Source: Aporhodopirellula aestuarii (GTDB lineage: Bacteria; Planctomycetota; Planctomycetia; Pirellulales; Pirellulaceae). From it: 64,000 nt of DNA. The DNA is taken from positions 186,001 through 250,000 of the forward strand of contig NZ_JAMQBK010000024.1 in the NCBI RefSeq assembly GCF_023701485.1, given 5' to 3'. The notes below the pieces were generated by a model. The model had not been told where the DNA came from, made no database searches, and saw only the letters and a program-made list of their open reading frames with translations. Shown here piece after piece: positions 15,806 through 41,488 of this stretch (position 1 is the stretch's first letter; every line of letters starts with the position of its first letter). Made by a program: the position numbers and the translations under genes.

Positions 15806-18073
15806 TTAGTTCCGTTTTCGCTTTTGCAGTTCTTTGAAACTGACTCGCTCGCGTCGGCGAGTTGGTTCTACATCGGTGCCAAACAACAATGCGCCTTGCA
15901 TCGAAGCGGCGACGGAACAGCCGACTAGGCAGTCGAGCCAGTGGTTATCGGGCTGTTCGGGGCGGGCTTTCCATTCGTCGACAGTCCGACCGCGGCCTTC
16001 TGTTTTGATAAAGTATTCGGCGGTGATTTGTTCGGCGAACATTCGATGCGTTTCGGCTTGGTTGCCGTAAACGGACAGGCAACCACGATCGCCCATCGCG
16101 ACAGCGAGCCTCGCGTGCGTGAACGACTTCCACCAATTCGTGTCGTAGATGATGTGCCGGATCGCGCGTTTCCCGTGGACGCTGGGAATTCGCCAGTTCA
16201 AACCCACGCGGTCGCCGGGGCGGCGTTTGTATTCGCTGAATGGATTCGAGGACGCACCGACGAAACGTCCGTGCGAAGGCAATAGGATCGAAGCATGTGG
16301 GCTTTGCCGACAGAATTGATAGACCACGTTCGTGGAGTGTCCCCAGTTGGCGTCGATCAAGCACCGCCCAATCTTCATTGCCGCACCATCGTCACGTTGC
16401 CATTCACGACCAAGCAAATCTTCGGTGAGCGATTCGAGCCCGGCATAGATACTGCCTTCGAGTCCTGTGCCGTCCGCAGCGGTTGCCAGCGTGTGGCGTG
16501 CATCGCGAAGCGTGTAGTACGCTCGGCTCTGGTCGGGATACGCCCCGTAGTCGAGAACGTAGCCCGTGAAATCGTCTTCCCATGCGGCGACCACAAAGAA
16601 CAAGAGTTTTTGCTGCACGTCGATAAACGCAGTGAGATGGTTCGCCGAAATCGGAACGCAGCGTCGTTCGAGTCCGTTGATTTTGCCAGCGACCTGCTCG
16701 GCCGTAAGTTGGTCGGCATCGACGCGTTCTTCCGGCAGTGGTTCATTCTGATACTCCGCGAAGAATGCCGCTTCGTCTTGTAGCTTCAAATTCATTGCGT
16801 GCTGGATCGCGGACAGCTCGTCGTGATTGAAACGTTCTTTCCACGCGACATCGGCACCCTCGTCCATCGCCCGCCGGTTCTCGCGATAGAACTCGGTTCC
16901 GGCCGCGCCGCCGTCGCCGGCTCGCAAACCTTCGGCACGGATTTCCGCGTAGCGTTCCCATAGCGTTTCATTTGTTGGAAATGAGTTCACCATTCGCGTT
17001 CGCGCACCGTTCCATTCCGGATGTTTGTCGCGATCGAGAATGTTGTCGGCCATGTCGCCGGGACGAATGACCGTGCAGGGCATGATGCCCGAGATCTTTT
17101 TACCTGGGCCGGCGAGTCCGAGCACCGCGCCGGCGAGGATCGCTTCGCGGTTGGCACATTGCGAAAGCGAACGAGCCGACTCGTCCGTTTGCGGGTCATC
17201 GAGCACGACCAACGAAGGTCGAACCGTTCGTCCATCGGGCCGCTTGAACTTCATTCCACGAATGCGTCCGGTCAGGCCGGCAACTTTGATGATCGCACCG
17301 CTCGCTTTGCTGTTAGCGATGGTTGGCAGGACAACTTCTTTCGCCGTCCATCCAATTTGCGTGCGTTTGCCTTGATAGAGCTGCCCGTTGGCTCGGTTTG
17401 AGATTCCGTCCAACGCCTGAATTGGAAAGCAGACTTCCGGGTAGTCGGCCAACAAAATTTCATTGGCATCGAGTTCCGTTTTGATCGAGTCGAGCATGTC
17501 GCATGCGTGGCCTTCGTCGCTGCCGATCAAACATACGAAATCTCGGTAACCGTTTAGCACTGCCCAGATGCACGCAACCTCGGCCAGCGAACTTTTTCCA
17601 CTACCGCGAGCCATCGCGAGTGAGAACAGACCACCACGAACGACCGCTTCTTCGATGCGCTCAATCACCTTCAAGTGATCCGGCGACCATTGCAGATGAA
17701 ACGTCAGCGAGAAATAGGCTTCGCAAAAGTATCGAAAACTACTGGCGGCCTTCGCTTTTCGCCGCGGATCCTCGATCACTGGCAAGTCACCGATGTCGCG
17801 ACCGGCCAATGCGATCGCTGCATTGCGGGCGCGGGCTTTGTCTTTGACCTTGCCGTACGGATCCTCGTCGGCCGGCGGCTTCGGACGATGGCGTTCTTCG
17901 ACTAGCCAAGCGGTGAAGCGGAGGAGGTCAACGTGCGTTCCGTCTCCGATGCGATTTCCAGCTCGCGTTCGATAGCGATAGAGCTGGCGTTCGTTGATCA
18001 CCTCACCGAACGGCGTGCTATTGAGCGTCCTGCAGCACTCGCTCGGTTTCATTCGTCGCGGGTCAGTCGCCAC
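15806..18073 (-). CDS. Phage terminase large subunit
   Basis: The packaging motor ATPase and nuclease. GTG at 18073 is chosen because AGGAG lies seven bases upstream and it overlaps the stop of the preceding gene; the frame itself opens at 18130. From GTG the protein has 755 residues. Walker A is SLAMARGSGKSS (about residue 155), Walker B is SLVVLDDPQTDESA (about 286). The C-terminal nuclease shows FIDVQQ, ANWGHSTNVVYQF and DNHWLDCLVG, with the acidic residues expected of a Gp17-like RNase H fold. The first about 70 residues are an extra domain that resembles the preceding 105-aa protein (shared DGT, V/L-rich, TAW-L-E-H pattern). Confidence 0.93.
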   Translation of the reverse strand: MATDPRRMKPSECCRTLNSTPFGEVINERQLYRYRTRAGNRIGDGTHVDLLRFTAWLVEERHRPKPPADEDPYGKVKDKARARNAAIALAGRDIGDLPVIEDPRRKAKAASSFRYFCEAYFSLTFHLQWSPDHLKVIERIEEAVVRGGLFSLAMARGSGKSSLAEVACIWAVLNGYRDFVCLIGSDEGHACDMLDSIKTELDANEILLADYPEVCFPIQALDGISNRANGQLYQGKRTQIGWTAKEVVLPTIANSKASGAIIKVAGLTGRIRGMKFKRPDGRTVRPSLVVLDDPQTDESARSLSQCANREAILAGAVLGLAGPGKKISGIMPCTVIRPGDMADNILDRDKHPEWNGARTRMVNSFPTNETLWERYAEIRAEGLRAGDGGAAGTEFYRENRRAMDEGADVAWKERFNHDELSAIQHAMNLKLQDEAAFFAEYQNEPLPEERVDADQLTAEQVAGKINGLERRCVPISANHLTAFIDVQQKLLFFVVAAWEDDFTGYVLDYGAYPDQSRAYYTLRDARHTLATAADGTGLEGSIYAGLESLTEDLLGREWQRDDGAAMKIGRCLIDANWGHSTNVVYQFCRQSPHASILLPSHGRFVGASSNPFSEYKRRPGDRVGLNWRIPSVHGKRAIRHIIYDTNWWKSFTHARLAVAMGDRGCLSVYGNQAETHRMFAEQITAEYFIKTEGRGRTVDEWKARPEQPDNHWLDCLVGCSVAASMQGALLFGTDVEPTRRRERVSFKELQKRKRN

Positions 18074-18380
18074 GGTGCATCTCCTGTAAGAGCCAAGCGG
18101 TGTAGACGACCAGGTTGATCGTGCCATCAACGTTTGTCGGTGCGCCGGCTTCTAGATCGGCGGCGATTTGTTCCTCTGGAACGCGCTGGCGGTACGCGTT
18201 GCTCAACAACTTCGAAAGTTGCTCGACCGAAAGTTTGGTCGGGTCAACATTCTCTCGTTTGCCTTCCATGTCGGGATCCGTGGGTTGGTTCGCAACTCGC
18301 CGCACACGTTGGCGGCTGTCGCGTTTGTTTGCATGTTTGGCATCGTCGGCCGCATGTTTGGGCCGGCGACGTTGGGCCAA
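18063..18380 (-). CDS. Terminase small subunit candidate (DNA-binding-like, 105 aa)
   Basis: The protein has a basic N-terminal half (MAQRRRPKHAADDAKHANKR) and a helical C-terminal half (LSVEQLSKLLSNAYRQRVPE ... INLVVYTAWLLQEMHRGD). It overlaps the large terminase start, the normal place for TerS. Its second half aligns by eye with the N-terminal extension of the large subunit encoded next door, so the two may share a small DNA-binding or dimerisation fold. Function as TerS is inferred from position and size. Confidence 0.65.
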   Translation of the reverse strand: MAQRRRPKHAADDAKHANKRDSRQRVRRVANQPTDPDMEGKRENVDPTKLSVEQLSKLLSNAYRQRVPEEQIAADLEAGAPTNVDGTINLVVYTAWLLQEMHRGD

Positions 18381-18440
18381 AACTGGCGGCGTGCGCGGGT
18401 GAAAAGAAACCTGGGAATTACTGAAACATTACTTCCGGAC

Positions 18441-18516
18441 TTCGCTTGAGGTGTCTCGAAACGCATGGCTCATGTGTGTCAACGAAACGAATTACACGCC
18501 TTTTGGAGACACACGA
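18441..18516 (+). promoter_or_regulatory. Repeated leader, copy A (upstream of amidoligase)
   Basis: TTCGCTTGA at 18441-18449, 13 bases, then GCATGGCTCATGTGTG at 18463-18478, then CAACGAAACG, a T-rich patch and GGAGACACACGA before the ATG at 18517. Four more copies occur at 19.6, 20.0, 20.5 and 21.9 kb with identical spacing. The CATG-GCT-CATG core can pair with itself as DNA or RNA (ACGCATG with CATGTGT). Confidence 0.75.
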
Positions 18517-19374
18517 ATGAACGCCAACGACATCGCCTTCGGTATCGAAATCGAAACCCACATGCCTGGCACCGACCGCACGCCGATCGGTGGATACCAC
18601 AACGGATTGCCGGTCGCTTGGCTGCCCGCGGGTTGGAAAGCAGAGCGCGACGGCAGCATCCGCACGCCGGCCGGACGCAAACCATGCGAGTTTGTATCTC
18701 CGGTTCTTCGCGGCTACGAAGGACTCGCCAACGTAGAGACCGCGGTGGACGCGATCAAAGAACGCGGCGCACGGGTTAACGAATCTTGCGGCCTGCACGT
18801 AACGGTTTCCTGGAACGGCGACGCCGCGGCCTTGGCCCGACTGATTTCGCTGATCGCGAACCACGAACGAGCCATCTACGCTTCGACCGGCACCAAACGC
18901 CGCGAACGAACCCACTGGGCAAAGCAAATCAAAAGATACGGCAATAAAGACGCCGCGAAGACCCGCTGCGAACGAGACCGCTACCACCTTCTCAACCTCA
19001 CGCACCTGGCCGCCGGCCGAAACCGAATCGAGATTCGGGCCTTCGCCGGAACGCTCAACAAGACGAAACTGATCGGATACATCCAAATGATTTTGGGCTT
19101 GGTAGAACTCGCCCTCACTACGAAACGCTGCAGCGGATGGGATTACGCCAAGAAGCCTGGCACGAAGAGTTGCTGGGACCGACCGGATGCCGGCCACGGC
19201 GAAACGGAACTCAACCGGCTCTTCTACCGCCTCGGATGGACCAAGGGTTGGTACAAGGGCGAACTTCGCAACAAACGCTTCGGCGAACTTTCCTCCGCCG
19301 AACAAACCTGCGACTGGAAGCCAGTCAAAAAGAAGCTTCTTGAATTGGCCCGCAAATACGACCAGGCGGTCTAA
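18517..19374 (+). CDS. Predicted amidoligase (Amidoligase_2 family, GCS-like fold)
   Basis: ATG at 18517 follows GGAGAC by six bases; the longer frame from 18451 would translate the repeated leader and is not used. The 285-aa protein has the family pattern of the carboxylate-amine ligase (gamma-glutamylcysteine synthetase-like) fold: FGIEIETHMPGTD (metal-binding Glu pair), WKAERDGSIR followed by CEFVSPVLRG, CGLHVTVSW, and RNRIEIRAFAGTLN. Such enzymes couple ATP hydrolysis to amide bond formation and are known in phages and mobile elements, where peptide, protein or cell-wall modification has been proposed. Substrate is unknown. It is the first gene of the small-gene region and is closed by a hairpin at 19399. 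No ATP-grasp or amidotransferase partner lies next to it. Confidence 0.88.
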   Translation: MNANDIAFGIEIETHMPGTDRTPIGGYHNGLPVAWLPAGWKAERDGSIRTPAGRKPCEFVSPVLRGYEGLANVETAVDAIKERGARVNESCGLHVTVSWNGDAAALARLISLIANHERAIYASTGTKRRERTHWAKQIKRYGNKDAAKTRCERDRYHLLNLTHLAAGRNRIEIRAFAGTLNKTKLIGYIQMILGLVELALTTKRCSGWDYAKKPGTKSCWDRPDAGHGETELNRLFYRLGWTKGWYKGELRNKRFGELSSAEQTCDWKPVKKKLLELARKYDQAV

Positions 19375-19398
19375 CCGCGGACGGCCTTCCGCCCCTCC

Positions 19399-19430
19399 AA
19401 CGCCGCGATGTATCTCGCGGCGTTTCTTTG
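19399..19430 (+). terminator. Intrinsic terminator after amidoligase
   Basis: Perfect 10-base arms AACGCCGCGA (19399-19408) and TCGCGGCGTT (19415-19424), a six-base loop, then TCTTTGGTTTT. It ends the amidoligase unit before the next leader. Confidence 0.75.
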
Positions 19431-19445
19431 GTTTTGCGGGGGCAC

Positions 19446-19482
19446 GTGTACATCGTGTCGCGTCAACGGCGTATGTGACTAA
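19446..19482 (+). promoter_or_regulatory. Bipartite intergenic motif, copy 1
   Basis: GTGTACA, 13 bases, ACGGCGTATGTGACTAATAG. It has the same architecture as the copies at 15748-15784 and 30759-30795 and points toward the 91-aa gene. Leader copy B lies between it and that gene, so this unit may have two promoters or a promoter plus another control site. Confidence 0.5.
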
Positions 19483-19580
19483 TAGCGGGCCACTGTTTTG
19501 CAACGCGACAGACGCCGCAGTTTCGGGCCACGTCGGCGAGATCGAGAAACATTCAAAAAGACTGCGAATTGCTGGCTGGC

Positions 19581-19662
19581 TTCGCTTGATGTGTTTTGAA
19601 ACGCATGGCTCATGTGTGGTCATACGAAACGGTTTTTCATTCACCCAAACGGAGACACAAAC
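19581..19662 (+). promoter_or_regulatory. Repeated leader, copy B
   Basis: TTCGCTTGATGTGTTTTGAA, then GCATGGCTCATGTGTG at 19603-19618, CATACGAAACGGTTTTT and ACGGAGACACAAAC before the ATG at 19663. A GAAACATTCAAA segment occurs upstream, as in other copies. Confidence 0.75.
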
Positions 19663-19938
19663 ATGACCATCGACCAACTGATCGGATTGCTCGAAGAGTA
19701 CCGCGACGTACATGGGCCGGACGCCGAAGTGCGTTTGATGACGCAAGAGAACTGGCCTTTTGAAAACCGCATTGCCGGAATCACCAGCGGCGCGGAGATG
19801 AACGAAGCGAGCGAAGACGACCCCAGCGAATACTTCGATGACCAAGACGTCGCCGAAGACGCGATCGTCTACATCGTCGAAGGAGGCCAGATCTGCTACG
19901 GCAGCAAACGGGCCTGGGAAGCGTGCCGCGATTGCTAA
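19663..19938 (+). CDS. Small acidic phage/plasmid protein, function unknown (91 aa)
   Basis: The ATG at 19663 follows CGGAGACACAAAC. The protein begins MTIDQLIGLLEEYRDVHGPD and continues AEVRLMTQENWPFENRIAGI, then an acidic stretch and VYIVEGGQICYGSKRAWEAC. This resembles small proteins commonly annotated in phages and plasmids that start with a 'leucine-rich helix, D-A-E-V, W-P-F-E' pattern; I know of no assigned function. It has its own repeated leader and a 12-base inverted repeat directly after it, so it behaves as a separate cassette. Confidence 0.85.
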   Translation: MTIDQLIGLLEEYRDVHGPDAEVRLMTQENWPFENRIAGITSGAEMNEASEDDPSEYFDDQDVAEDAIVYIVEGGQICYGSKRAWEACRDC

Positions 19939-19955
19939 ACGCGGCAAGCGAAAGC

Positions 19956-19990
19956 GAGTTCGGGAAACATTCAAAGACTTTCCCGAACTC
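19956..19990 (+). terminator. Perfect 12-base inverted repeat, terminator or operator
   Basis: GAGTTCGGGAAA (19956-19967) and TTTCCCGAACTC (19979-19990), loop of 11. No T-run follows; it abuts leader copy C. It may end the 91-aa unit, or act as an operator or RNA stem for the next one. Confidence 0.5.
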
Positions 19991-20070
19991 TGCTTGCTGT
20001 GTCTGAAACCGCATGGCTCATGTGTGTCAACGCAGACGCATTTCCCCTTTCCAACAACGGAGACCCAACC
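19991..20070 (+). promoter_or_regulatory. Repeated leader, copy C
   Basis: TGCTTGCTGTGTCTGAAACC, then GCATGGCTCATGTGTG at 20011-20026, TCAACGCAGACG, T-rich patch, ACGGAGACCCAACC before the ATG at 20071. Spacing of CTTG to GCATGG is identical to the other copies. Confidence 0.72.
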
Positions 20071-20280
20071 ATGGCAAAGAACACCGCTCGCGTCGAAGAC
20101 GCTTACACCACCGCGCATGTCCGGGCTTTGACCTTGCTCGAAGACCTTCACCAAATCGTCGAAGACATGCCGGCCCCCGATGCCGACCATCCCATCAATT
20201 GGGAACACGTCGGTTCGCTTCAACACCTTTCCGAACGGCTCAAGGAATTGAAAGACTTCGTTGCTCCGGCCGGCGAATAG
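20071..20280 (+). CDS. Small helical protein, paralogue of the 77-aa protein at 22108
   Basis: A 69-aa protein, MAKNTARVEDAYTTAHVRAL, predicted fully helical. Alignment by eye with the 77-aa product at 22108-22341 shows the same skeleton: A-Y-x-x-A-H, a helix with L-L and an acid-rich end, P-D, W-x-H-V, and a final helix with L-x-E. The two are therefore paralogues within one element. No catalytic residues or metal sites are visible. It has its own leader (copy C) and a strong terminator, so it forms a one-gene unit. Function unknown. Confidence 0.82.
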   Translation: MAKNTARVEDAYTTAHVRALTLLEDLHQIVEDMPAPDADHPINWEHVGSLQHLSERLKELKDFVAPAGE

Positions 20281-20300
20281 ATTCTCGCCCGCAACCTTTC

Positions 20301-20328
20301 GGCCGCGCTCGACAGCGCGGCCGTTTTT
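20301..20328 (+). terminator. Intrinsic terminator after the 69-aa gene
   Basis: GGCCGCGCT (20301-20309), CGAC loop, AGCGCGGCC (20314-20322), then GTTTTT. A typical GC-rich stem with a T-run. Confidence 0.88.
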
Positions 20329-20471
20329 CGTTGAATCGCCGCCGACGTTGGCCCGTGTCGCGAGCTGTTGCCAACAAGCAGCAAACCATGCCGACATCTC
20401 TTTCCGGGCCACAAACGCAAACGTCCGCGGAACTTGAAAACATCGCAAAAGACTGAGAATTACTGCCGAGA

Positions 20472-20562
20472 ATCGCTTGAGCTGTTTCCAGATGCATGGC
20501 TCATGTGTGTTAACGCCAAACGGCAAAACGTTTTCAAAACCCTTTTCACGAGAGACAAAACC
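20472..20562 (+). promoter_or_regulatory. Repeated leader, copy D
   Basis: TCGCTTGAGCTGTTTCCAGA, then GCATGGCTCATGTGTG at 20494-20509, TTAACGCCAAACGG, AACGTTTTC and ACGAGAGACAAAACC before the ATG at 20563. In this copy the short frame starting at ATGGCT meets TAA after five codons, which argues against a conserved leader peptide. Confidence 0.72.
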
Positions 20563-20814
20563 ATGGCCATGAACGAAACGAAAAAAGCGAAGGTCGCCGC
20601 TCTTCGCACCGAGATGCGAAAGCTCGACCCCGAAACGTATCAGGAGATTCGTCAGTCGTATTACAAGATCGCCGAGGAGCTTCGTCCCTTGGTCGACGCC
20701 CTTGAAAAGGCTGACGCGGACCTGGGACCGGACGGCACGCTTTTGGAAGAGCACTACATCTTTTGCGAGATGCTCGAACGGCTCAACAAGAGCCTTCTTG
20801 GCGGGGTTGTTTAA
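20563..20814 (+). CDS. Small helical protein, function unknown (83 aa)
   Basis: ATG at 20563 after GAGAGACAAAACC; the longer frame to 20368 crosses the leader and is not used. The protein (MAMNETKKAKVAALRTEMRK ... EELRPLVDALEKADADLGPD) is helical, charged and probably forms a coiled coil or helical bundle. No known motif is visible. It is the first gene after leader copy D. A GC-rich stem without T-run follows at about 20835-20856, so read-through to the HARE-HTH gene is possible. Confidence 0.75.
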   Translation: MAMNETKKAKVAALRTEMRKLDPETYQEIRQSYYKIAEELRPLVDALEKADADLGPDGTLLEEHYIFCEMLERLNKSLLGGVV

Positions 20815-20964
20815 CCCGCCGGCCGCACAACAACCGCCGCGGACGGAACCGCGGCGCGACTCGCAAGGACGGAAGCCGAAACGCAAACGGGCGTTGTCGC
20901 GGCTGGTTCCCGCGGCCTGACGATGGCAGCCAACCACGAACGAAGTCCAAACGGAGAACGAACG

Positions 20965-21444
20965 ATGAAGAAGGCAGACGTAAAGATCGGTGGAGAATAC
21001 TTCGCAACGGTCACCAACAAGAAAGTGACGGTGCGTATTGACGCAGAGAACCGAAGTGGAGGATGGGACGCAACAAACCTCTCGACGGGAAAGAAAGTGC
21101 GAATCAAGACGGCCGGCCGGTTGAAGGGTTCGGCGCGGGCTACTGAGACGCCGGCAACGAAAACGCGGGTCAGGAAACGAGTCGCGAAAAAGACGGAGGA
21201 AACCACGGGCGTTGAAAAGAAGCTCTCGTGCGTGAAAGCGGCGTTGAAGGTCCTGGCTGATAGCGGCGAACCGATGAACGCGCAAGAGATGATCGCCGCG
21301 ATGACCGAAGCTGGGTTGTGGGAAAGCCCTGGCGGTAAGACGCCGCACGCGACGCTTTACTCGGCGATCCTGCGAGACATGAAACGCGGCGATGAAAGTC
21401 GCTTCGTCAAAACGGAACGTGGTCGGTTCACGGCGAGAGCATAG
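20965..21444 (+). CDS. HARE-HTH domain protein (winged helix), 159 aa
   Basis: ATG at 20965 is preceded by GGAGAACGAACG. The N-terminal about 45 residues (MKKADVKIGGEYFATVTNKK, VRIDAENRSGGWDATNL) form a small beta domain, followed by a basic Thr/Lys/Arg linker. Residues about 85-159 (CVKAALKVLADSGEPMNAQE, TEAGLWESPGGKTPHATLYS, ILRDMKRGDESRFVKTERGR) match the HARE-HTH fold known from DNA-modification and chromatin-linked proteins. A role as DNA-binding regulator or in modified-DNA recognition is inferred. It is followed by the 77-aa gene nine bases downstream. Confidence 0.85.
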   Translation: MKKADVKIGGEYFATVTNKKVTVRIDAENRSGGWDATNLSTGKKVRIKTAGRLKGSARATETPATKTRVRKRVAKKTEETTGVEKKLSCVKAALKVLADSGEPMNAQEMIAAMTEAGLWESPGGKTPHATLYSAILRDMKRGDESRFVKTERGRFTARA

Positions 21445-21453
21445 GGCGAAGCG

Positions 21454-21687
21454 ATGAAGTTCATTTGCGACGTCCGCCAGGTAAATGACTTGGCCGAAGG
21501 CGAAACCGCACCTCCGGAACCCGACATGGGATACGAACTGCGGTCGATCGCCGGCGAAAACTTTGAAGCTGGTGTTGTGGAATATGTGGTCCGCCGCGGA
21601 GACGCGATCTTTGCGAGGACAACGGCCTGCGAAGAGTTTGCGGTCACGGGCAAGAACGCCCACGTTTTGGTGCCGCTCGGCTTCTAG
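21454..21687 (+). CDS. Hypothetical small protein (77 aa)
   Basis: The frame starts MKFICDVRQVNDLAEGETAP, has a strand-rich centre (GVVEYVVRRGDAIFARTTAC) and ends VTGKNAHVLVPLGF. It follows the HARE-HTH gene by nine bases with GGGCGAAGCG upstream and probably shares its transcript. Not recognised. A terminator-like hairpin follows at 21704. Confidence 0.68.
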   Translation: MKFICDVRQVNDLAEGETAPPEPDMGYELRSIAGENFEAGVVEYVVRRGDAIFARTTACEEFAVTGKNAHVLVPLGF

Positions 21688-21703
21688 TCCGAACGCCGCC
21701 GAC

Positions 21704-21740
21704 AACGCCCGACGTTCGTAGCGTACGGGCGTTTCGTCGT
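21704..21740 (+). terminator. Terminator-like hairpin
   Basis: Arms AACGCCCG (21704-21711) and CGGGCGTT (21726-21733), then TCGTCG. Stem is good, the T-run is weak. It separates the leader-D unit from leader E. Confidence 0.45.
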
Positions 21741-21848
21741 GACGGCCGTAACCACGCGGCGCACCCGAGTCACGCGACACGCGGCAACGTCGTGGCCCAA
21801 CGCACTCCGGCGAAAAACATGTTGAAGTTTTGGAATGTTTCGTGGACT

Positions 21849-21928
21849 TCGCTTGATGTGTTGGCAAACCAATGGCTCATGTGTGGTTGTACGAACGGTT
21901 TTTCAAACAACACGAACGGAGAAACGAA
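21849..21928 (+). promoter_or_regulatory. Repeated leader, copy E
   Basis: TCGCTTGATGTGTTGGCAAA, then CAATGGCTCATGTGTG at 21870-21885 (one base of the core changed), GTACGAACGGTTTTTC and CGGAGAAACGAA before the ATG at 21929. An imperfect inverted repeat (CGAAAAACAT / ATGTTTCG) lies just upstream. Confidence 0.72.
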
Positions 21929-22111
21929 ATGAAGATGCAACCGCAGCGAATGCGATCGGCTGTTGTATTCGCCGACGGCCGGCGAATCGAAGTCGAAGAA
22001 CCCTTGTCAGTTCAAATGATCGTCGCCGATGCGAAACGCGCTGGCGCGGCCAAGGTTGAACTCGAAAACGGCACCGAAATCTATCTCAACGAGAAAGGAG
22101 ACCAGAAATGA
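21929..22111 (+). CDS. Hypothetical small protein (60 aa)
   Basis: ATG at 21929 follows CGGAGAAACGAA. The protein (MKMQPQRMRSAVVFADGRRI, then MIVADAKRAGAAKVELENGT) looks like one compact beta-alpha-beta unit. The same frame is open back to the ATGGCT of the leader, but the RBS supports the inner start. Its end overlaps the next gene by four bases (ATGA). It is first in a four-gene unit with the 77-aa, DUF4314 and 106-aa genes. Function unknown. Confidence 0.75.
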   Translation: MKMQPQRMRSAVVFADGRRIEVEEPLSVQMIVADAKRAGAAKVELENGTEIYLNEKGDQK

Positions 22112-22341
22112 ACAAGGTTCAAACGCTTAACGCTCAGCCAATCCAACCCGCACCGGCTTACGAAAACGCTCACCAGATTGCCCGCGATCTCTTGCAACAC
22201 ATCGAGTTGCAACTCGACCGAATGATTCGGCCGGACAACAAGGCTTTGCGATGGACGCACGTACGAGCGTTGAACTTGGTCAACGCTCAGCTTTCGGAAG
22301 TTGCCGCGCTGGTCGACGAAACCAACAACGCTCGCAACTAG
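22108..22341 (+). CDS. Small helical protein, paralogue of the 69-aa protein at 20071
   Basis: A 77-aa protein, MNKVQTLNAQPIQPAPAYEN, with helices AHQIARDLLQHIELQLDRMI and RWTHVRALNLVNAQLSEVAA. It shares the A-Y-x-x-A-H, L-L, P-D, W-x-H-V layout with the 69-aa product. Start overlaps the previous stop (ATGA). The two paralogues sit under different leader copies, which suggests duplication or separate capture of related cassettes. Function unknown. Confidence 0.8.
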   Translation: MNKVQTLNAQPIQPAPAYENAHQIARDLLQHIELQLDRMIRPDNKALRWTHVRALNLVNAQLSEVAALVDETNNARN

Positions 22342-22352
22342 GAAACAAAACG

Positions 22353-22568
22353 ATGAAAACGAATCTCAAGGCGGGCGATCGCGTGCGGCTGATTTCGATG
22401 ACCGACGACCCCGATCCGATTCCCGCCGGCACCACCGGAACGGTGGCCGGCGCTTATCCACAAAGCGATTGGACGCAGGTCGATGTCGACTGGGACAACG
22501 GCCGGTCGCTGATGCTTTCCATTCCACCGGACGTCGTCGAGCGACTGCCGGCCGGCCAAACGAACTAA
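22353..22568 (+). CDS. DUF4314-like small protein
   Basis: ATG at 22353 is preceded by AGGAAACAAAACG; the frame opening at 22251 is upstream shadow. The 71-aa protein has the DUF4314 pattern: KAGDRVRLISMTDDPDPIPA, GTTGTVAGAY, VDWDNGRSLML and a final D-V-V-E-R-L. This family is a small SH3-like barrel seen in phages and plasmids; its role is unknown. It is third gene of the leader-E unit. Confidence 0.85.
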   Translation: MKTNLKAGDRVRLISMTDDPDPIPAGTTGTVAGAYPQSDWTQVDVDWDNGRSLMLSIPPDVVERLPAGQTN

Positions 22569-22580
22569 GGAGCAACCACC

Positions 22581-22901
22581 ATGTCCACACGAGCGACGAT
22601 CGCAGTCCGCCGCGCCGACCGAACATACGCAGCGGTCTACCTTCATTACGACGGTTACCCCGAACACACAGGAGAAATTCTGATGCAAAGCTACCAAACT
22701 CAAACCGCCGCCGAGGAACTCGTCTCCCACGGCGACCTTCGATGCCTGAACCGCGAGACCGGCGAGGCCGAACGATTCTCAGACGGTGATCCGCCGGCCA
22801 AGTTGCCGACCAACGACTCGCTGATTGATTTCGCGAGAAATTGCGGCGCTCGATTCGTCTATGTCTTTGACGACGGAGCTTGGTCGTGCAAGGAACTCTA
22901 G
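22581..22901 (+). CDS. Phage small protein of the STRATIAV / HYDGYPEH type (106 aa)
   Basis: The protein starts MSTRATIAVRRADRTYAAVY and continues LHYDGYPEHTGEILMQSY, a combination I recognise from many phage and plasmid hypothetical proteins. RBS AAGGAGCAACCACC is strong. The last part (FARNCGARFVYVFDDGAWSC) completes a small alpha/beta fold. No function is known. Its stop is directly adjacent to the stop of the convergent methyltransferase gene. Confidence 0.85.
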   Translation: MSTRATIAVRRADRTYAAVYLHYDGYPEHTGEILMQSYQTQTAAEELVSHGDLRCLNRETGEAERFSDGDPPAKLPTNDSLIDFARNCGARFVYVFDDGAWSCKEL

Positions 22902-24212
22902 TCACCGCATGTTCTCCTCGCGTCTGCCCACTGGGATCGGCGATTCGCCGGTCCGTTCGAGGATTGCTTTCTTGCCGGTGAAGCGTTGGTAGCGATCAAC
23001 GATCACGTCGCAGTACGGCGGATCGAGTTCCATCAAGAATGCCTTGCGCCCCGTCTGCTCCGCGCCGATCAGCGTCGAGCCACTGCCGCCAAACAAGTCG
23101 AGCACGTTCTCGCCTTTCCGCGACGAGTATTGCATCGCCAAAACCGCGAGTTCGGCGGGCTTGCCAGTGAGGTGTTCGAGCTTCTGCGGAGCGATTTTCT
23201 TGACGTGCCACAGGTCCGTCGCGTTGTTTGGCCCAAAGAATTTGTGACCAGCACCTTCTTTCCATCCATAGAACGCCCATTCATGTGCCCCCATGAAGTC
23301 TTTGCGGGTCATCACGGGGTGTTGCTTGTCCCAGATGATGGCCTGGGAAAAATACAAACCGGCTGCGGCCAGGACCGGCGGGTAGTTGGCGATGTTGGAG
23401 AAGCCACCCCAGATGTAAAAGCAACGGCCGGGTTCGAGCACGCGAGTGATGTTGCCAAACCACGCTTTCAACAATCGGTCGAACTCTTCGTCGGACACAA
23501 AGTCATTCGCAAGCGGCCGATCCTTGGCCCGCATCTTCTTCGGGCCTTCCTTCGTCTTGCCCTTGCCAGCCTCGAACGACGAATTGCCGGCCGCGATCGC
23601 ATTCTTGCTGCGAGGTTCCACCTTCACGTTGTACGGTGGATCGGTATTGCAAAGGTGAATCTTCGCGCCGGAGAGCAGACGATCGAGGTCTTCGACGCTG
23701 GTCGAGTCACCACACATCAGTCGATGGTCGCCGAGGATCCAAATGTCGCCGCGCTGCGTGATCGCTTCGTCTGGCGGTTCGGGGATGTCGTCTGGATCCG
23801 TCAAACCCTGCGTTACACCGGGATCGAGCAGCTTGGCGAGTTCATCATCGTCGAAACCGAGCAACTCAACATCAAAACCTGATTCTTGTAATCCGCCGAT
23901 TTCCAAGGGCAACAGGTCGTAGTCCCACTGCGCGTTCTCGCCAGTCCGGTTGTCGGCGATCCGGTACGCTTTTACCGCTTCAGGTTCGAGGTCCGTCGCG
24001 ATGTGAACGGGGACTTCGGCGAGTCCGAGTTTTTTCGCCGCCTTGAACCGTGTATGGCCGACGATAATGACACCGTCGGTATCGACCACGATCGGCTGGC
24101 GAAACCCGAACTCGTTGATCGAGAGGATGACGGCATCAACGGCGTCGTCATTGATGCGAGGATTGTTCTCGTAAGGCTTGATTCGATCAAGCGACCACAT
24201 TTCGACCTGCAT
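22902..24212 (-). CDS. ParB-domain DNA methyltransferase (N6-adenine/N4-cytosine, beta class order)
   Basis: The 436-aa protein has an N-terminal ParB/Srx-like nuclease-fold domain (residues about 1-125; NPRINDDAVDAVILSINEFG, VIIVGHTRFKAAKKLGL, YRIADNRTGENAQWD). A methylase domain follows: DPPY catalytic motif at about residue 190 (LCNTDPPYNVKVEPRSKN) and the SAM-binding VLDLFGGSGSTLIGAEQ at about 370. This order, catalytic motif before SAM motif, is the beta group. Phages carry such enzymes to modify their DNA, either against host restriction or to regulate replication. It heads no obvious restriction partner in this module. Confidence 0.95.
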   Translation of the reverse strand: MQVEMWSLDRIKPYENNPRINDDAVDAVILSINEFGFRQPIVVDTDGVIIVGHTRFKAAKKLGLAEVPVHIATDLEPEAVKAYRIADNRTGENAQWDYDLLPLEIGGLQESGFDVELLGFDDDELAKLLDPGVTQGLTDPDDIPEPPDEAITQRGDIWILGDHRLMCGDSTSVEDLDRLLSGAKIHLCNTDPPYNVKVEPRSKNAIAAGNSSFEAGKGKTKEGPKKMRAKDRPLANDFVSDEEFDRLLKAWFGNITRVLEPGRCFYIWGGFSNIANYPPVLAAAGLYFSQAIIWDKQHPVMTRKDFMGAHEWAFYGWKEGAGHKFFGPNNATDLWHVKKIAPQKLEHLTGKPAELAVLAMQYSSRKGENVLDLFGGSGSTLIGAEQTGRKAFLMELDPPYCDVIVDRYQRFTGKKAILERTGESPIPVGRREENMR

Positions 24213-30800: not shown

Positions 30801-31415
30801 TCAGAAATTGGCCACGCCATACTTCTTCAAGTGCTTGGCGATCTCGGCACGCACCGCGTTGAACCGCCGACGCGGCAGGCCATACTTTTTCATCGTGCTG
30901 CTCATCGAATGACAACGCAGGTACTCGCACACCCGCCGCAATTCCGCGGGCATCGTCTGCATCGCGACCTCCAAAGCGTCCGCTTCGTCGATCGCCTCGA
31001 ATGGATCGCTGTAAGACGACTGGCTTCGTCGGACCTGGTCCTCGTCACAGATTTCGCCACCCAGAGTCGCGAACGTTTCATCCACCGTGTCGACGGGCGT
31101 CTCAAACGATTGCATTTGCACGCCATCTTCGATCGGATGCCGTTTGTGGCGTTTCCTCGATCGCAACAGTTCTCGCACGCCCGAGTTGATGACTCGGTTG
31201 ATGAACGTGTTCACCTTCGATCGCGACGGGTCGAAACAGTCAGCTTTTTGGATCAAGTACATCAGCAACTCTTGAGCGATGTCTTCGGCGTCACAGTCGC
31301 TGAATTCCGGTCGCCGATGGAGTTGCTCGGCTTTGATCCGCGCCGTCTTCATGGCGAAATCGTTAAGAATCTCTTCGCCGAGCCGTTTGCCTTCCGCTTG
31401 AGTATTCGCACTCAT
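30801..31415 (-). CDS. Sigma-70 family (ECF-like) RNA polymerase sigma factor
   Basis: ATG at 31415 follows GGAGACAACC; the frame opening at 31493 is longer but lacks an RBS. The 204-aa protein shows sigma region 2 (FSDCDAEDIAQELLMYLIQK, FDPSRSKVNTFINRVINSGV, RELLRSRKRHKRH) and a degenerate region 4 (MQTMPAELRRVCEYLRCHSM, then MKKYGLPRRRFNAVRAEIAK, a helix-turn-helix). It probably directs RNA polymerase to promoters of this element. The bipartite motif lies directly downstream of it and at two other operon heads. Region 4 is not a classical match, so promoter choice cannot be predicted from sequence. Confidence 0.85.
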   Translation of the reverse strand: MSANTQAEGKRLGEEILNDFAMKTARIKAEQLHRRPEFSDCDAEDIAQELLMYLIQKADCFDPSRSKVNTFINRVINSGVRELLRSRKRHKRHPIEDGVQMQSFETPVDTVDETFATLGGEICDEDQVRRSQSSYSDPFEAIDEADALEVAMQTMPAELRRVCEYLRCHSMSSTMKKYGLPRRRFNAVRAEIAKHLKKYGVANF

Positions 31416-34805: not shown

Positions 34806-35543
34806 CTACTCAGCGAACAAACCCAGATACTCCAATTGAATCCGCATCGCCTCGTCCGACACCGCGAATTGATCCGCCAGCGATTCACAGAACACCTCAC
34901 GCATCAAACGGATCGGATCCGGCTGGACCTCGATCCCATCGGCGTCGATCAAGAAACGAATCGGCTCGATCGTCGGCACGAGTTCTCGAAGCCGACAGTC
35001 GCAAATCGGATCATCGCTGCCGGTTAGCATTCGCCACGCCGGCCTGAGCAACCATTCGGGCATCAGTAAACAACCAGCGAACTCATCGGCTTGTCGTTCG
35101 ATCAAGGGACGAGCGTGATCCTTGCGACAAATCACGTCCGGCATTTCCTCGTCACCGTACAAGACCGCATGTCCGGCTTCGTCCAGGAACAAAAACCGGT
35201 GTAACTGCCAGTGTGCGATTTCATGGCCGAGCGTGAAGTGATAGCGACCGAGAAGATCGGGAAAGCGATCTGGATTCAGCGCGTCGTCGATCAGGATGTG
35301 CTGTCGCGAGAACCAGATCGCACCATGAACGCGACCACCAAGTTGGCTCTGGAGATCCGAGAAGCCAAAAGTCAGCGGCAACACCGAGGTCGCGACATCC
35401 TCAATTTCGATGGGAGGTTTCACGATCGGCCCGAATCGCTTCGCGTACTCCTCCAGCACAGTGTCGGCCTCGGCAGCGATTTGGCGGGACGACAGCGGCG
35501 GCACTTCGATTCCCTGTGCGAACAAATCAACGACCATCGTCAC
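34806..35543 (-). CDS. ImmA/IrrE-family metallo-endopeptidase
   Basis: The 245-aa protein has the HExxH zinc site YHFTLGHEIAHWQLHRFLFL at about residues 104-123 and the downstream RQADEFAGCLLMPEWLLRP that supplies the third ligand (E-x-x-A-D-x-F-A). This is the ImmA/IrrE (COG2856) pattern. Such peptidases cleave a partner XRE repressor; here the XRE gene is directly upstream with a four-base overlap (ATGA). The N-terminal about 60 residues are a linker and small helices, the C-terminal about 60 are unique. A role in relieving repression of the locus is inferred. Confidence 0.93.
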   Translation of the reverse strand: MTMVVDLFAQGIEVPPLSSRQIAAEADTVLEEYAKRFGPIVKPPIEIEDVATSVLPLTFGFSDLQSQLGGRVHGAIWFSRQHILIDDALNPDRFPDLLGRYHFTLGHEIAHWQLHRFLFLDEAGHAVLYGDEEMPDVICRKDHARPLIERQADEFAGCLLMPEWLLRPAWRMLTGSDDPICDCRLRELVPTIEPIRFLIDADGIEVQPDPIRLMREVFCESLADQFAVSDEAMRIQLEYLGLFAE

Positions 35544-35905
35544 TTCCCCCGCTTTTTCATTTTACGAATCTGTTCTTTGATGATTTCAAATTGTTTCGGT
35601 GAAAGCCCAGTCGCCAACCGCATCAGCTCGGGCATGTCTTTTGGGTGTTGGCGGACCATGACATCCACGTCATCCGGCACGCGATCGGCCAGCCGAATCC
35701 ATTCGTCGGAATCTTCGCCCAACAACTCAGCGATCTTCGTGACACGATCTGCCGTTGGCGGTGCAAAGTGATCCTGCTCGACCTGTGACAAATACGTTGC
35801 CGACACGCCGATCATCTCTGCGAATTTGCGCAGCGTGATCTTCTTCGCCGTTCGTTTCTGGCGCAGCACCGCGCCAAACGACTTCGCACCACGAGCCTTT
35901 TTCAT
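35540..35905 (-). CDS. XRE-family HTH regulator
   Basis: ATG at 35905 (MKKARGAKSFGAVLRQKRTA) is preceded by GGGGAGG nine bases upstream; the longer frame to 35977 is rejected. An XRE helix-turn-helix lies at residues about 11-65 (KKITLRKFAEMIGVSATYLS, QVEQDHFAPPTADRVTKIAE). The C-terminal part (LADRVPDDVDVMVRQHPKDM, SPKQFEIIKEQIRKMKKRG) is shared by eye with the second XRE protein at 48751. It likely represses its own promoter and that of the 399-aa gene through TAGTG/CACTA sites and is cleaved by the adjacent ImmA/IrrE protein. Confidence 0.92.
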   Translation of the reverse strand: MKKARGAKSFGAVLRQKRTAKKITLRKFAEMIGVSATYLSQVEQDHFAPPTADRVTKIAELLGEDSDEWIRLADRVPDDVDVMVRQHPKDMPELMRLATGLSPKQFEIIKEQIRKMKKRGK

Positions 35906-36021
35906 CGCGCAGGCCTCCCCGCCGAATCGTCGCCCGAATTCCACTGCATCCAAAGCATGGCAATCTCCATCAACCACTTACTCCTCCGGAAACCCGCGAA
36001 AACACGAGCCCCCGACCCTCG

Positions 36022-38407: not shown

Positions 38408-41400
38408 TCATTTCTGTTTCAAGTTCTTGTAGACCTTAGCCAGGAGGTGTTCCAAAGCAATCTTTCGGAATTCGTCATCGCTCATCAAGCGATCGAAGAT
38501 CTCTTCGTTGCCTTCCATTCGGTCGATGACCAATCCCTCAAACGACTTTTCAAAGACACCTCGAAAGTCGTCTTTTGAATTGGCCGCCGCAGCCTTTTGA
38601 AGATCTTCGTTTTCGTTTGCTTCCTCTTCGATCTGATCAAAAAACAATTGGTCGGCCTGTGTGAAGTCCGTCCCGAACCGTTCGTTGAGCAGCGTGATCA
38701 GTTCCGAGAGACGGATTTGCTCGTCATCTCGCCCCGTTCCCACATCCGACGGTCCCTTCAACGGGCTGGCGTCGCCAGTCTCCAGGTCGATGCTGCCTTC
38801 GCTGATCTTTTGCAGGCGGTAGTACTGCAAGTCGATCTCGTTGCCCAAGTGGTAGGCAGGCCCGGTTTCACGCTTGGGAAGCTTCGTCAGCAAAAACCGA
38901 AGGTATGTCGCCAACTGCTCCAAATCGGAATCTTGGTACGGTAAAACCTGGGAAAGAAAGCCGTACATATTGCGGAAGTTAACTAAAAGGGCTTTCGTTT
39001 CTTCTTGTTCCTCTTCCGTTTTCGCGGTGAAGCGATCTTTGGCGATGTCGAGAATGCCACTCATTTGAGCTTGATCGTTCGGTGTTTCTTTTCGTTTTGG
39101 CTGGAAATAGATTTTGCAGAAAGCAATTACTTCGGACTCATCGAACAGAGCCGTTTCCTCAATCTGATGTTGCAGCCGGTAAAGATGCTGCGCGTCGGTG
39201 ATCGGTTCAGTTGGCGTGTCCTCGTAGTACGGCTTGAACGCCGCATAGATCTCCTCGGGTTTATTGCGAAAATCTAAAACGAACGTGTCCTCTTTTCCGC
39301 TGCACGTTCGGTTTAGCCTCGACAGGGTTTGCACGGCACGTAATCCGCTCAGTTTGCGATCGACGTACATCGTATGCAGAAGGGGTTGATCGAAACCTGT
39401 TTGATACTTCTCAGCAACTAACAGAACTTGGTACTGTTCCGTATCAAACTTGCTTGGCAATTCTGATTCTTTGATTCCTTCATTCATGCCCACTTCTGTG
39501 TATGACTTGCCAGGCGCGTCTGGATCTTCCACCGTTCCCGAGAACGCAACTAACGTCCGGATGTCATCGTATCCCTTCGCCTTGATGTACCGGTCGAACG
39601 ATTGCTTGTAGCGAACCGCATGCAACCGCGACTCAGTCACCACCATCGCTTTAGCCCGGCCGCCAATCTTATGCTTGACATGCGTGCGGAAGTGCTCCAC
39701 CATCACTTCGGTCTTCATCGCCAGGTTGTAATCGTGCAGACTCAACGCCCGCGCCAAGGCCCGAGCGGCCTTCTTGCGTAGCACATTGGGGTCTTCTTCG
39801 GATGCCTGCACAATCCGAAAGTAAGTCTCGAACGTGGTATAGTTCTGAAGCACGTCCAAAATGAAGCGTTCTTCGATTGCTTGTCGCATCGTGTAGAGAT
39901 GAAACGGCGATTGGCCCGTCTCGCCCGGCTCATCAAAAACGATTTTGGTCTTGTACTTCGGCGTCGCCGTAAACGCGAAGAAGCTCAAATTCGGCTGCTT
40001 ACCTCGCTTCATCATCTCCCGAACCACGCCGGCAAGATGATCGGCATCGTCATCATCTTCGTCATCCAATCCGTGCTCGGCCGCATACTTCGCGGCATCC
40101 TCGGCAATTTGCTCCGCATTCAGAATGCCTTTCAATTCCATTGCAGATTCGCCGGATTGCGAACTGTGAGCTTCGTCGACGATGACAGCGAAACGGCGAT
40201 CCTTCGTCGAAATATTTAATCCAGGCAGGCTTTCTTCGCGAAGTTTTTCCAGCGTCTCGCTCACGAAAGGAAACTTTTGCAGCGTCGTGATCACGATCGG
40301 CGTTCCACCAGCCAGCGCTTTCACGAGTTGCTTGGTATCTTCGTCGATCTTCTCGACCACCCCCTGTTTGTGATCGAATTGGTAGATCGTGTTCTGCAAC
40401 TGTTGATCCAGCACTCGTCGATCCGTCACGACGATCACGCTATCGAAAACGCGACGGTCATTGGCATCGTGCAATGAAGACAGGCGATGGGCTAGCCAGG
40501 CGATCGAGTTGGACTTGCCGGACCCTGCGGAGTGTTGAACCAAATAGTTTTTACCTGGCCCGTTTTTTCGGGCACTATCGACCATTTTGCGGACGCAATC
40601 GAGCTGGTGATAACGAGGAAAGATCATCGTTTCTAAAGTGATGGTTTTGATGCCCGACGACGTCAGGATGCGCTTCTCGCTGACCTGCAAGTGCATGAAA
40701 CGCCCGACGATGTCCAGCAAACTATCCCGCTGCCAAACCTCTCGCCAAAGATACGACGTGCGGTAGCCTCCGTCCTTAGCCTGCGGATTGCCCGCGTGGC
40801 TCTTGTTACCGAGGTTAAACGGCAGGAAGTATGTCTTCTTTCCGCTTAACCGCGTTGTCATAAAAACCGCGTCCTGATCAACCGCGAAGTGTACGAGTGA
40901 ACGCTTCTTGAACGTGAAGATCAAATCGTTGGCGTCGCGATCTTCCTTGTACTGCTTCATCGCGTTCTGGACCGTTTGTCCGGAAAGCGGATTCTTCAGT
41001 TCCGCTGTCACTAACGGCAAACCATTGAGCAAAAGAACCAGATCGAGTGAGTTGCTGTTCGACGTGCTGTAGAAAAGTTGCCGAGTAACGCTCCAAGTAT
41101 TCTCAGCATACGCCGCCAGAGTATCTGGATTCATGGCGTTACTCGGTGCAAAGATCGCGACGCGAAACTTCTTCCCGTAGCACTTGAAACCCTGCCGCAG
41201 AACCTTCAAGACACCCTTCGTGTCCAGTTCTTTGCATAGATGCTCGATCAGCAACCGCTCAGCGTCGTCCCCGTGAATCGTCTTCAGTCCGGCCCAAGGT
41301 TTCGGCTGCGTTGCAGTGATGAAACGGATCACCCGTGAGGGATCAATCGCCCTCGACCGATCGAACCGTTCTTTATCCGGTCCGGAGTTGTAATTGACGA

Positions 41401-41488
41401 ACTCGAATCCGCCGCCACCCTGCTGCGTCGACTGGCAAAGCTCCGCGACGATCGCATCCTCGAATCGAGCCTCCGTGTGTTTCTTCAT
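38408..41488 (-). CDS. hsdR: Type I restriction enzyme HsdR subunit
   Basis: The 1026-aa protein has the PD-(D/E)XK nuclease in the N-terminal third (NSLDLVLLLNGLPLVTAELK at about residues 148-167, with Asp, Glu and Lys in place), followed by an SF2 motor: Walker A QHSAGSGKSNS (about 322), DEAH-like VIVDEAHSSQSGES (about 439), FFAFTATPKYKT, and a C-terminal QTLSRLNRTCSGKEDTFVLD. It cuts DNA far from the recognition site when HsdM/HsdS find it unmethylated. It is separated from hsdS and hsdM by about 3.4 kb of foreign-looking genes. The start at 41488 has a T-rich upstream gap shared with the divergent cassette. Confidence 0.95.
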   Translation of the reverse strand: MKKHTEARFEDAIVAELCQSTQQGGGGFEFVNYNSGPDKERFDRSRAIDPSRVIRFITATQPKPWAGLKTIHGDDAERLLIEHLCKELDTKGVLKVLRQGFKCYGKKFRVAIFAPSNAMNPDTLAAYAENTWSVTRQLFYSTSNSNSLDLVLLLNGLPLVTAELKNPLSGQTVQNAMKQYKEDRDANDLIFTFKKRSLVHFAVDQDAVFMTTRLSGKKTYFLPFNLGNKSHAGNPQAKDGGYRTSYLWREVWQRDSLLDIVGRFMHLQVSEKRILTSSGIKTITLETMIFPRYHQLDCVRKMVDSARKNGPGKNYLVQHSAGSGKSNSIAWLAHRLSSLHDANDRRVFDSVIVVTDRRVLDQQLQNTIYQFDHKQGVVEKIDEDTKQLVKALAGGTPIVITTLQKFPFVSETLEKLREESLPGLNISTKDRRFAVIVDEAHSSQSGESAMELKGILNAEQIAEDAAKYAAEHGLDDEDDDDADHLAGVVREMMKRGKQPNLSFFAFTATPKYKTKIVFDEPGETGQSPFHLYTMRQAIEERFILDVLQNYTTFETYFRIVQASEEDPNVLRKKAARALARALSLHDYNLAMKTEVMVEHFRTHVKHKIGGRAKAMVVTESRLHAVRYKQSFDRYIKAKGYDDIRTLVAFSGTVEDPDAPGKSYTEVGMNEGIKESELPSKFDTEQYQVLLVAEKYQTGFDQPLLHTMYVDRKLSGLRAVQTLSRLNRTCSGKEDTFVLDFRNKPEEIYAAFKPYYEDTPTEPITDAQHLYRLQHQIEETALFDESEVIAFCKIYFQPKRKETPNDQAQMSGILDIAKDRFTAKTEEEQEETKALLVNFRNMYGFLSQVLPYQDSDLEQLATYLRFLLTKLPKRETGPAYHLGNEIDLQYYRLQKISEGSIDLETGDASPLKGPSDVGTGRDDEQIRLSELITLLNERFGTDFTQADQLFFDQIEEEANENEDLQKAAAANSKDDFRGVFEKSFEGLVIDRMEGNEEIFDRLMSDDEFRKIALEHLLAKVYKNLKQK

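Follow-up and report, generated by a model that had tools for sequence, protein, structure and literature searches.

A stretch of 64,000 nucleotides from Aporhodopirellula aestuarii (contig NZ_JAMQBK010000024.1, positions 186,001 to 250,000; here called the window and numbered from its first letter) carries a prophage island of small genes in which five copies of a shared leader, A to E, each stand at the head of a separate unit. Going by their sequence, these leaders are very probably copies of one phage-specific promoter. Each copy would drive its own short accessory-gene unit, which in many cases ends in a terminator, and transcription of the island as a whole would run counter to that of the flanking replication and head genes.

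Anatomy and spread of the leader

The leaders lie at 18445–18478 (A, whose promoter-like core precedes an amidoligase gene), 19585–19618 (B), 19993–20026 (C), 20476–20509 (D) and 21852–21885 (E), the first coordinate being in each case the C of CTTG, and all are directed rightward (+ strand). The initial annotation, made from the letters of the DNA alone, had placed five leaders here, and two kinds of search recover them. The pattern CTTGNNNTGTN6ANNCATGGCTCATGTGTG, with up to three mismatches allowed, matches five times in the window and never in 100 shuffles. Scored with a weight matrix built from the wider family, leaders A–E reach 64–93, while the runner-up in the window scores −27, which falls within the maxima of ten shuffles (−37 to −20); neither strand holds another copy. 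Some details had to be corrected: CTTGA is not common to all leaders, as C reads CTTGC, and the supposedly common ribosome-binding site (RBS) block differs from copy to copy. The CAATGG variant described for leader E is present. The island is flanked on one side by leftward head genes (terminase at 15806–18130, portal, capsid) and on the other by leftward replication genes (methyltransferase, Prim-Pol, helicase, RusA, DUF669, AAA_24). An antisense open frame of 1149 aa (18418–21867, − strand) spans the whole island and is probably a codon-bias effect.

The annotation had named a lack of further copies outside this element as the finding that would speak against it. With up to two mismatches, 238 copies occur, spread over 52 of 199 Pirellulaceae genomes and 25 of 68 genera, and the reversed pattern gives four. 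The 238 copies group into 82 clusters, each with between one and seven. The window's own genome (9.07 Mb) has nine, five in the window and four in a second cluster on the same contig. An exact 18-base form was found as 33 stretches in genome contigs of 84,980 species, 30 of them in Planctomycetota records (Pirellula, Rhodopirellula, Rubripirellula, Stieleria, Roseiconus and metagenome-assembled genomes), and as 42 stretches in viral contigs, with convincing flanks for 39. Contigs C2 and C3 of one genome (G150) carry four leader clusters, i.e. four related prophages. The comparisons below use 61 regions, namely the window and 60 fetched loci, with 210 leaders in total; locus L217 was fetched and left out of the analysis. 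In every cluster of these regions all leaders point in the same direction, and, in line with the annotation, many other planctomycete prophages have the leader in front of various small genes.

The consensus of 147 non-redundant copies reads G-CTTG-[AC][TG]G[TC], a variable middle, and C-ATGGCTCATGTGTG-T[CT]A. Six loci were left out of the logo: L019, L039 and L042 are chance matches as judged by their flanks, and L083, L101 and L114 are single matches in non-planctomycete records. Since most loci were fetched by a fixed-spacing pattern, the constancy of spacing and core is overstated; positions outside the pattern are unbiased. Among the latter, the G before CTTG is conserved in 94%, the C before ATGG in 93% and the T after the block in 78% of the 147 copies, and A-tracts lie upstream of CTTG, centred near −36, −27, −16 and −5. 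The step from CTTG to ATGG is 20 nt in 282 of 292 half-sites and in none is it 19 or 21. A 17-nt gap between TTG(A/C)(T/G)G and CTCATG matches the register usual for the sigma-70 family, and TGG occupies the position of an extended −10. The −10 place is taken by the invariant CTCATG, there is no sigma-A box, and a sigma-70 scan of 17800–23400 gave no sites. The distance from the block to the first start codon is 35–63 nt (median 44, 202 genes).

Read as a promoter, CTTG would be the −35 box (TTG at −35) and ATGGCTCATGTGTG would span the −10 region; transcripts would start about 2–3 nt past the block, near an A, giving a leader of 35–60 nt with an RBS. UP-element A-tracts lie where contacts of the C-terminal domain of the polymerase alpha subunit are expected. 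The phased A-tracts upstream of the leaders, which in promoter register fall at about −42, −53, −64 and −73, may act as such an element.

The annotation had also allowed for an RNA hairpin in the core, and CATG-GCT-CATG can indeed pair as a short hairpin in some copies. That the leader is an RNA element, either a riboregulator or a site for antitermination, transcribed from a start further upstream, is nevertheless very unlikely: leader RNA folds no better than shuffles (z-scores −0.8 to +1.1), the bases flanking the core vary without keeping pairs and show no covariation, and the CTTG step with the phased A-tracts suits a DNA complex. The other part of the proposal, a shared control element whose constant spacing fits a promoter, holds.

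Terminator-like hairpins occur in 34 of 71 inter-unit intervals compared with 10% in shuffles; 12 of 38 first leaders also have such a hairpin upstream, which counts against the promoter reading in that it weakens the terminator contrast. In the window, four unit-end hairpins had been described. Those at 19399–19424 (after unit A) and 20300–20323 (after unit C), both on the + strand, are terminator-like, the one at 19956–19990 (+) is a 12-bp stem in the gap between unit B and leader C, and the one near 21704 falls short of the T-tail criterion used.

Two other ideas about the leader were set aside. A sigma-54 site (TGGC...GC) was judged by eye, and the GC is missing at the required distance. 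Variant leaders, one with an extra C (ATGGCTCCATGTGTG) and one with a T (CATTGGTGT), resembled sigma-specific classes but are not taken as evidence for them, as both occur beside standard leaders in single phages. The T-variant is found in four of the five leaders of locus L224 (G010:C21, 1532–5105), all with drifted cores; there the T replaces a nearly invariant G. The unit genes of this locus are 63–90% identical to standard ones, and similar single variants adjoin standard leaders in other phages.

The candidate reader

The rigid two-part site with its non-standard −10 points to a special reader. The most likely one would be host RNA polymerase carrying a phage ECF-like (extracytoplasmic function) sigma factor, which is encoded at 30801–31415 (− strand), near the repressor end of the leftward replication block. 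We put the chances that this sigma reads the leaders, as its linkage to them suggests, at about even.

The start codon of the sigma gene was picked by eye, and the open frame extends to 31493. The protein has 204 aa, with helices at 23–96 and 142–202, and is classed as ECF (group 4) on having regions 2 and 4 and no region 3. It matches Sigma70_r2 in Pfam (9e-9) and the sigma factor PHROG 1740 (6.9e-11), and the top match of its profile in the PDB is the ECF factor SigE (1.5e-7). An AlphaFold model (predicted local distance difference test 83, predicted template modelling score 0.44) does not resolve the domain arrangement; the Foldseek matches listed for it are, by title, sigma or polymerase-complex structures (best E 1.2e-3). 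A relative in locus L148 has no Pfam match by itself, and 50,697 phage records contain no match to the window's sigma. Despite the divergence of the family, R186 at the start of the region-4 recognition helix is kept in 30 of 34 homologs.

Of the 82 clusters, 46 have a sigma homolog no more than 20 kb away (among clusters with at least two leaders, 36 of 46), and 45 of the 46 cluster-linked homologs are 4.8–14.7 kb downstream on the opposite strand, i.e. convergent. By profile search the sigma is present in 42 of the 61 regions. Thirteen of these 42 lack, or have replaced, at least three of the five intervening replication genes and yet keep the sigma, which is more than physical linkage would give. 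Its position at the repressor end of the replication block suggests that expression of the island would follow that of this block, in a coordinated wave. Two adjoining genes for an HTH_3 repressor and an M78 metallopeptidase (34806–35977, − strand) resemble an ImmR/ImmA switch, and to the right of the prophage genes there is a Type I restriction HsdR-like gene (38411–41488, − strand).

Several observations weigh against the sigma as the reader. Of the genes measured it diverges fastest (mean pairwise identity 0.26, down to 18%, compared with 0.58 for the HARE-HTH protein and 0.75 for the methyltransferase of the same regions), while the leader block stays nearly constant. How far non-orthologous leaders differ between phages does not track the sigma (rho 0.11; partial rho given HARE-HTH 0.07, with 27 of 200 permutations as high) and does track HARE-HTH (rho 0.36) and the methyltransferase (rho 0.40). 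Sigma distances are near saturation, so the covariation test is weak, and it gives no support. In the fetched DNA, 19 of the 61 regions have no sigma: eight are cut short and 11 have at least 13 kb downstream. Of these 11, L194 is a prophage that has lost its right-hand part; others keep few phage genes, and in the parts examined the rest look like remnants. Conversely, none of nine regions around lone sigma homologs has a leader, at least three of the nine being short or cut by a contig end. Finally, none of the leader copies is directed at the head genes, which the sigma would therefore not govern by way of the leader motif.

The correlations just given raise the question of whether another phage protein reads these promoters, the HARE-HTH protein or the ParB_N methyltransferase, as an activator or as an autoregulator binding an operator. 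HARE-HTH is a winged-helix domain, common to the delta subunit of RNA polymerase. The HARE-HTH gene occurs in 59 and the methyltransferase gene in 54 of the 61 regions, including those that lack the sigma, and in 10 regions a leader stands directly before HARE-HTH. We consider such a reader unlikely, though worth keeping in mind. The HARE-HTH correlation drops to 0.09 after allowing for the methyltransferase and may only mirror the phage backbone, eight of 20 loci fetched through HARE-HTH homologs have no leader scoring above shuffles, and a −35/−10 register is what a sigma factor reads.

A host reader has to be weighed as well. Morons are accessory genes that have start and end signals of their own and are oriented against phage transcription, and the island could be a row of them whose promoters are read in the lysogen by a host sigma or by a regulator conserved across Pirellulaceae. 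The island does run opposite to the phage genes to its left and right, its units are separately ended, and the leader has remained constant as the phage sigma diverged; host sigma factors are in ample supply, with 29–75 Sigma70_r2 proteins among the matches listed for each of nine relatives. We searched the window's genome for host sites of the same form. TTG-N17-TGGCTCATGTG has nine exact matches, all in the two leader clusters, none at one mismatch, and 37 at two mismatches compared with 77 for the reversed control. Having neither a one-mismatch host site nor an excess at two speaks against a host reader, as do the missing sigma-A −10 box and the empty sigma-70 scan, and we hold a row of host-read morons to be improbable. 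The phage ECF-like sigma factor is our preferred candidate.

Units as cassettes and the hammerhead ribozyme

Unit A consists of an Amidoligase_2 gene (18517–19374, +; PF12224, 2.3e-19) of family F3, which is found in 25 regions; its identity to phage proteins is up to about 31% among the matches listed. Unit B has one gene for a 91-aa protein (19663–19938, +; family F2 by clustering, no Pfam match at E ≤ 0.1) and unit C one for a 69-aa protein (20071–20280, +; family F1, phrog_14596). Unit D starts with an 83-aa open frame of family F0 (20563–20814, +), continues with the HARE-HTH gene (20965–21444, +; 159 aa, PF05066, 4e-13) and ends with a 77-aa open frame (21454–21687, +). Unit E (21929–22901, +) encodes a 60-aa protein (F6), a 77-aa protein, a DUF4314 protein and a phrog_1987 protein, and is met convergently by the gene for the ParB_N and N6_N4 DNA methyltransferase (22902–24212, −; Pfam 6.1e-25). 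The annotation was right in kind about two paralogous genes: the gene of unit C is in F1 and the second gene of unit E (22108–22341) is F1-like by reading of its sequence, although the clustering put no other window gene in F1.

Across the 61 regions, 202 of the 209 genes that directly follow a leader fall into 12 families. The usual order is F3-F2-F1-F0-F6, or F1 in the last place, from which units may be absent or to which others may be added; several relatives also have an F1 gene behind their last leader. A clear gain is seen on comparing the window with locus L189, whose sigma is 95% identical. L189 has one extra unit of 432 bp, a leader with a gene of family F8, inserted after unit C and ahead of unit D. 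The sequence preceding the F8 leader matches that preceding leader D of the window, and the next leader matches leader D itself, so that the joints fall within the shared leader block. As every unit has a common block of about 60 nt at its head, homologous recombination between leaders can add or drop units, and this is the route by which we suppose units to be gained or lost. The annotation's reservoir of exchangeable genes is thus borne out for the gain and loss of cassettes and not for an open pool, given that 12 families hold nearly all leader-first genes. In loci L149 and L150 (genome G011) the amidoligase unit measures about 4.6 kb rather than 1.14 kb and its frame is broken after about 35 codons, which looks like the insertion of an element.

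The joints of L189 might suggest that the leader serves chiefly as a recombination site by which units are swapped, with no role in expression. We find this highly improbable, since leaders keep a uniform direction within clusters and a tight distance to the start codon, and homology by itself would not preserve two blocks set apart by variable bases. Between the F0 gene and the HARE-HTH gene lies a type II hammerhead ribozyme (20874–20935, +; RF02276, 38.2 bits against a gathering threshold of 37, with the conserved core), 29 nt before the HARE-HTH start codon. In 39 relatives picked from the fetched loci for a ribozyme scan, it is present in all 29 in which HARE-HTH is not next to a leader (in L164 in sensitive mode only), always beside HARE-HTH. 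It was not found in any of the ten in which a leader directly precedes HARE-HTH, there counted as family F5 (L159, L169, L170, L173, L174, L185, L187, L195, L203 and L206), and six of the ten are negative in sensitive mode too. With a promoter in the same place, a ribozyme before HARE-HTH would be unnecessary. CUGANGA and GAAA are kept in all 30 ribozyme elements, six stem pairs show double changes, and by a simple rule the element ends 23–32 nt before the start codon in 27 of the 30. The likely job of the ribozyme is the predicted cleavage of a joint transcript, which would free the HARE-HTH mRNA.

Implications and comparison with known systems

To our knowledge, phage gene control in planctomycetes is almost unstudied. 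Among the literature matches listed, we found no prior description of the leader system and nothing on promoters of planctomycete prophages. Taken together, we tentatively picture a taxon-bound regulon in which cassettes join through the dedicated promoter of a fast-evolving phage sigma, and in which a hammerhead gives the promoter-less HARE-HTH gene a clean 5' end; this complete picture is possible rather than probable. If it is true, promoter and ribozyme are interchangeable routes to the same HARE-HTH mRNA. The purpose of prophage hammerheads, long open, becomes testable at one locus. The leader, a clean motif with hundreds of copies, marks a whole prophage group, predicts a sigma–promoter pair that could be used as an orthogonal expression switch in planctomycetes, and its cassettes provide a natural setting for testing by what route phage genomes acquire accessory genes.

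The island shares some features with several known arrangements. It resembles morons in having its own start and end signals and in being opposed to phage transcription; it differs in that five units stand under one special signal and not under separate host promoters. The promoters of the T4 promoter early stem-loop (PeSL) cassettes are host-type early promoters. According to the part of the source available to us, PeSL cassettes of T4-type phages consist of a promoter and hairpin repeated between small accessory genes (PMC4503421). Here too a promoter-like block is repeated between such genes (five times in the window, 210 times in the 61 regions) and units are gained or lost through the repeat, with one clear gain and an order that varies among regions. 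As far as that part of the source goes, the hairpins here are unlike PeSL in occupying about half of the intervals, and so is the small gene set in mostly fixed order. The −10 block is not host-like either. Because a host-type promoter is a defining feature of PeSL, we do not file the island there. The annotation's independent PeSL analogue survives in its shuffling of units and fails on the host-type promoter, for want of a sigma-A box, and on the open gene pool.

For prophage hammerheads that flank genes, transcript processing has been proposed (Perreault and others 2011, PMC3088659, in whose main text neither planctomyc nor Rhodopirellula occurs). The type II ribozymes described there are alike in lying beside a prophage gene, while the one described here has a fixed gene partner and is absent when a promoter adjoins HARE-HTH.

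A close parallel to the proposed control is found in phages phiEco32 and 7-11, where, in the part of the account at hand, a phage sigma-family gene is accompanied by several near-identical non-host promoters before phage units (PMC4331800). The window's sigma has no detectable sequence relation to the phiEco32 and 7-11 sigma (no matches in the phage records searched). The likeness lies in the combination of a phage sigma-family gene with repeated non-host promoters of −35/−10 spacing. From what that part of the account gives, the promoters in phiEco32 and 7-11 serve middle and late genes, structural ones included, along the genome direction, whereas the leaders here serve an accessory island in the opposite direction. 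By analogy with these partly consulted sources, the arrangement would work like a sigma regulon of the phiEco32 kind combined with PeSL-like cassettes.

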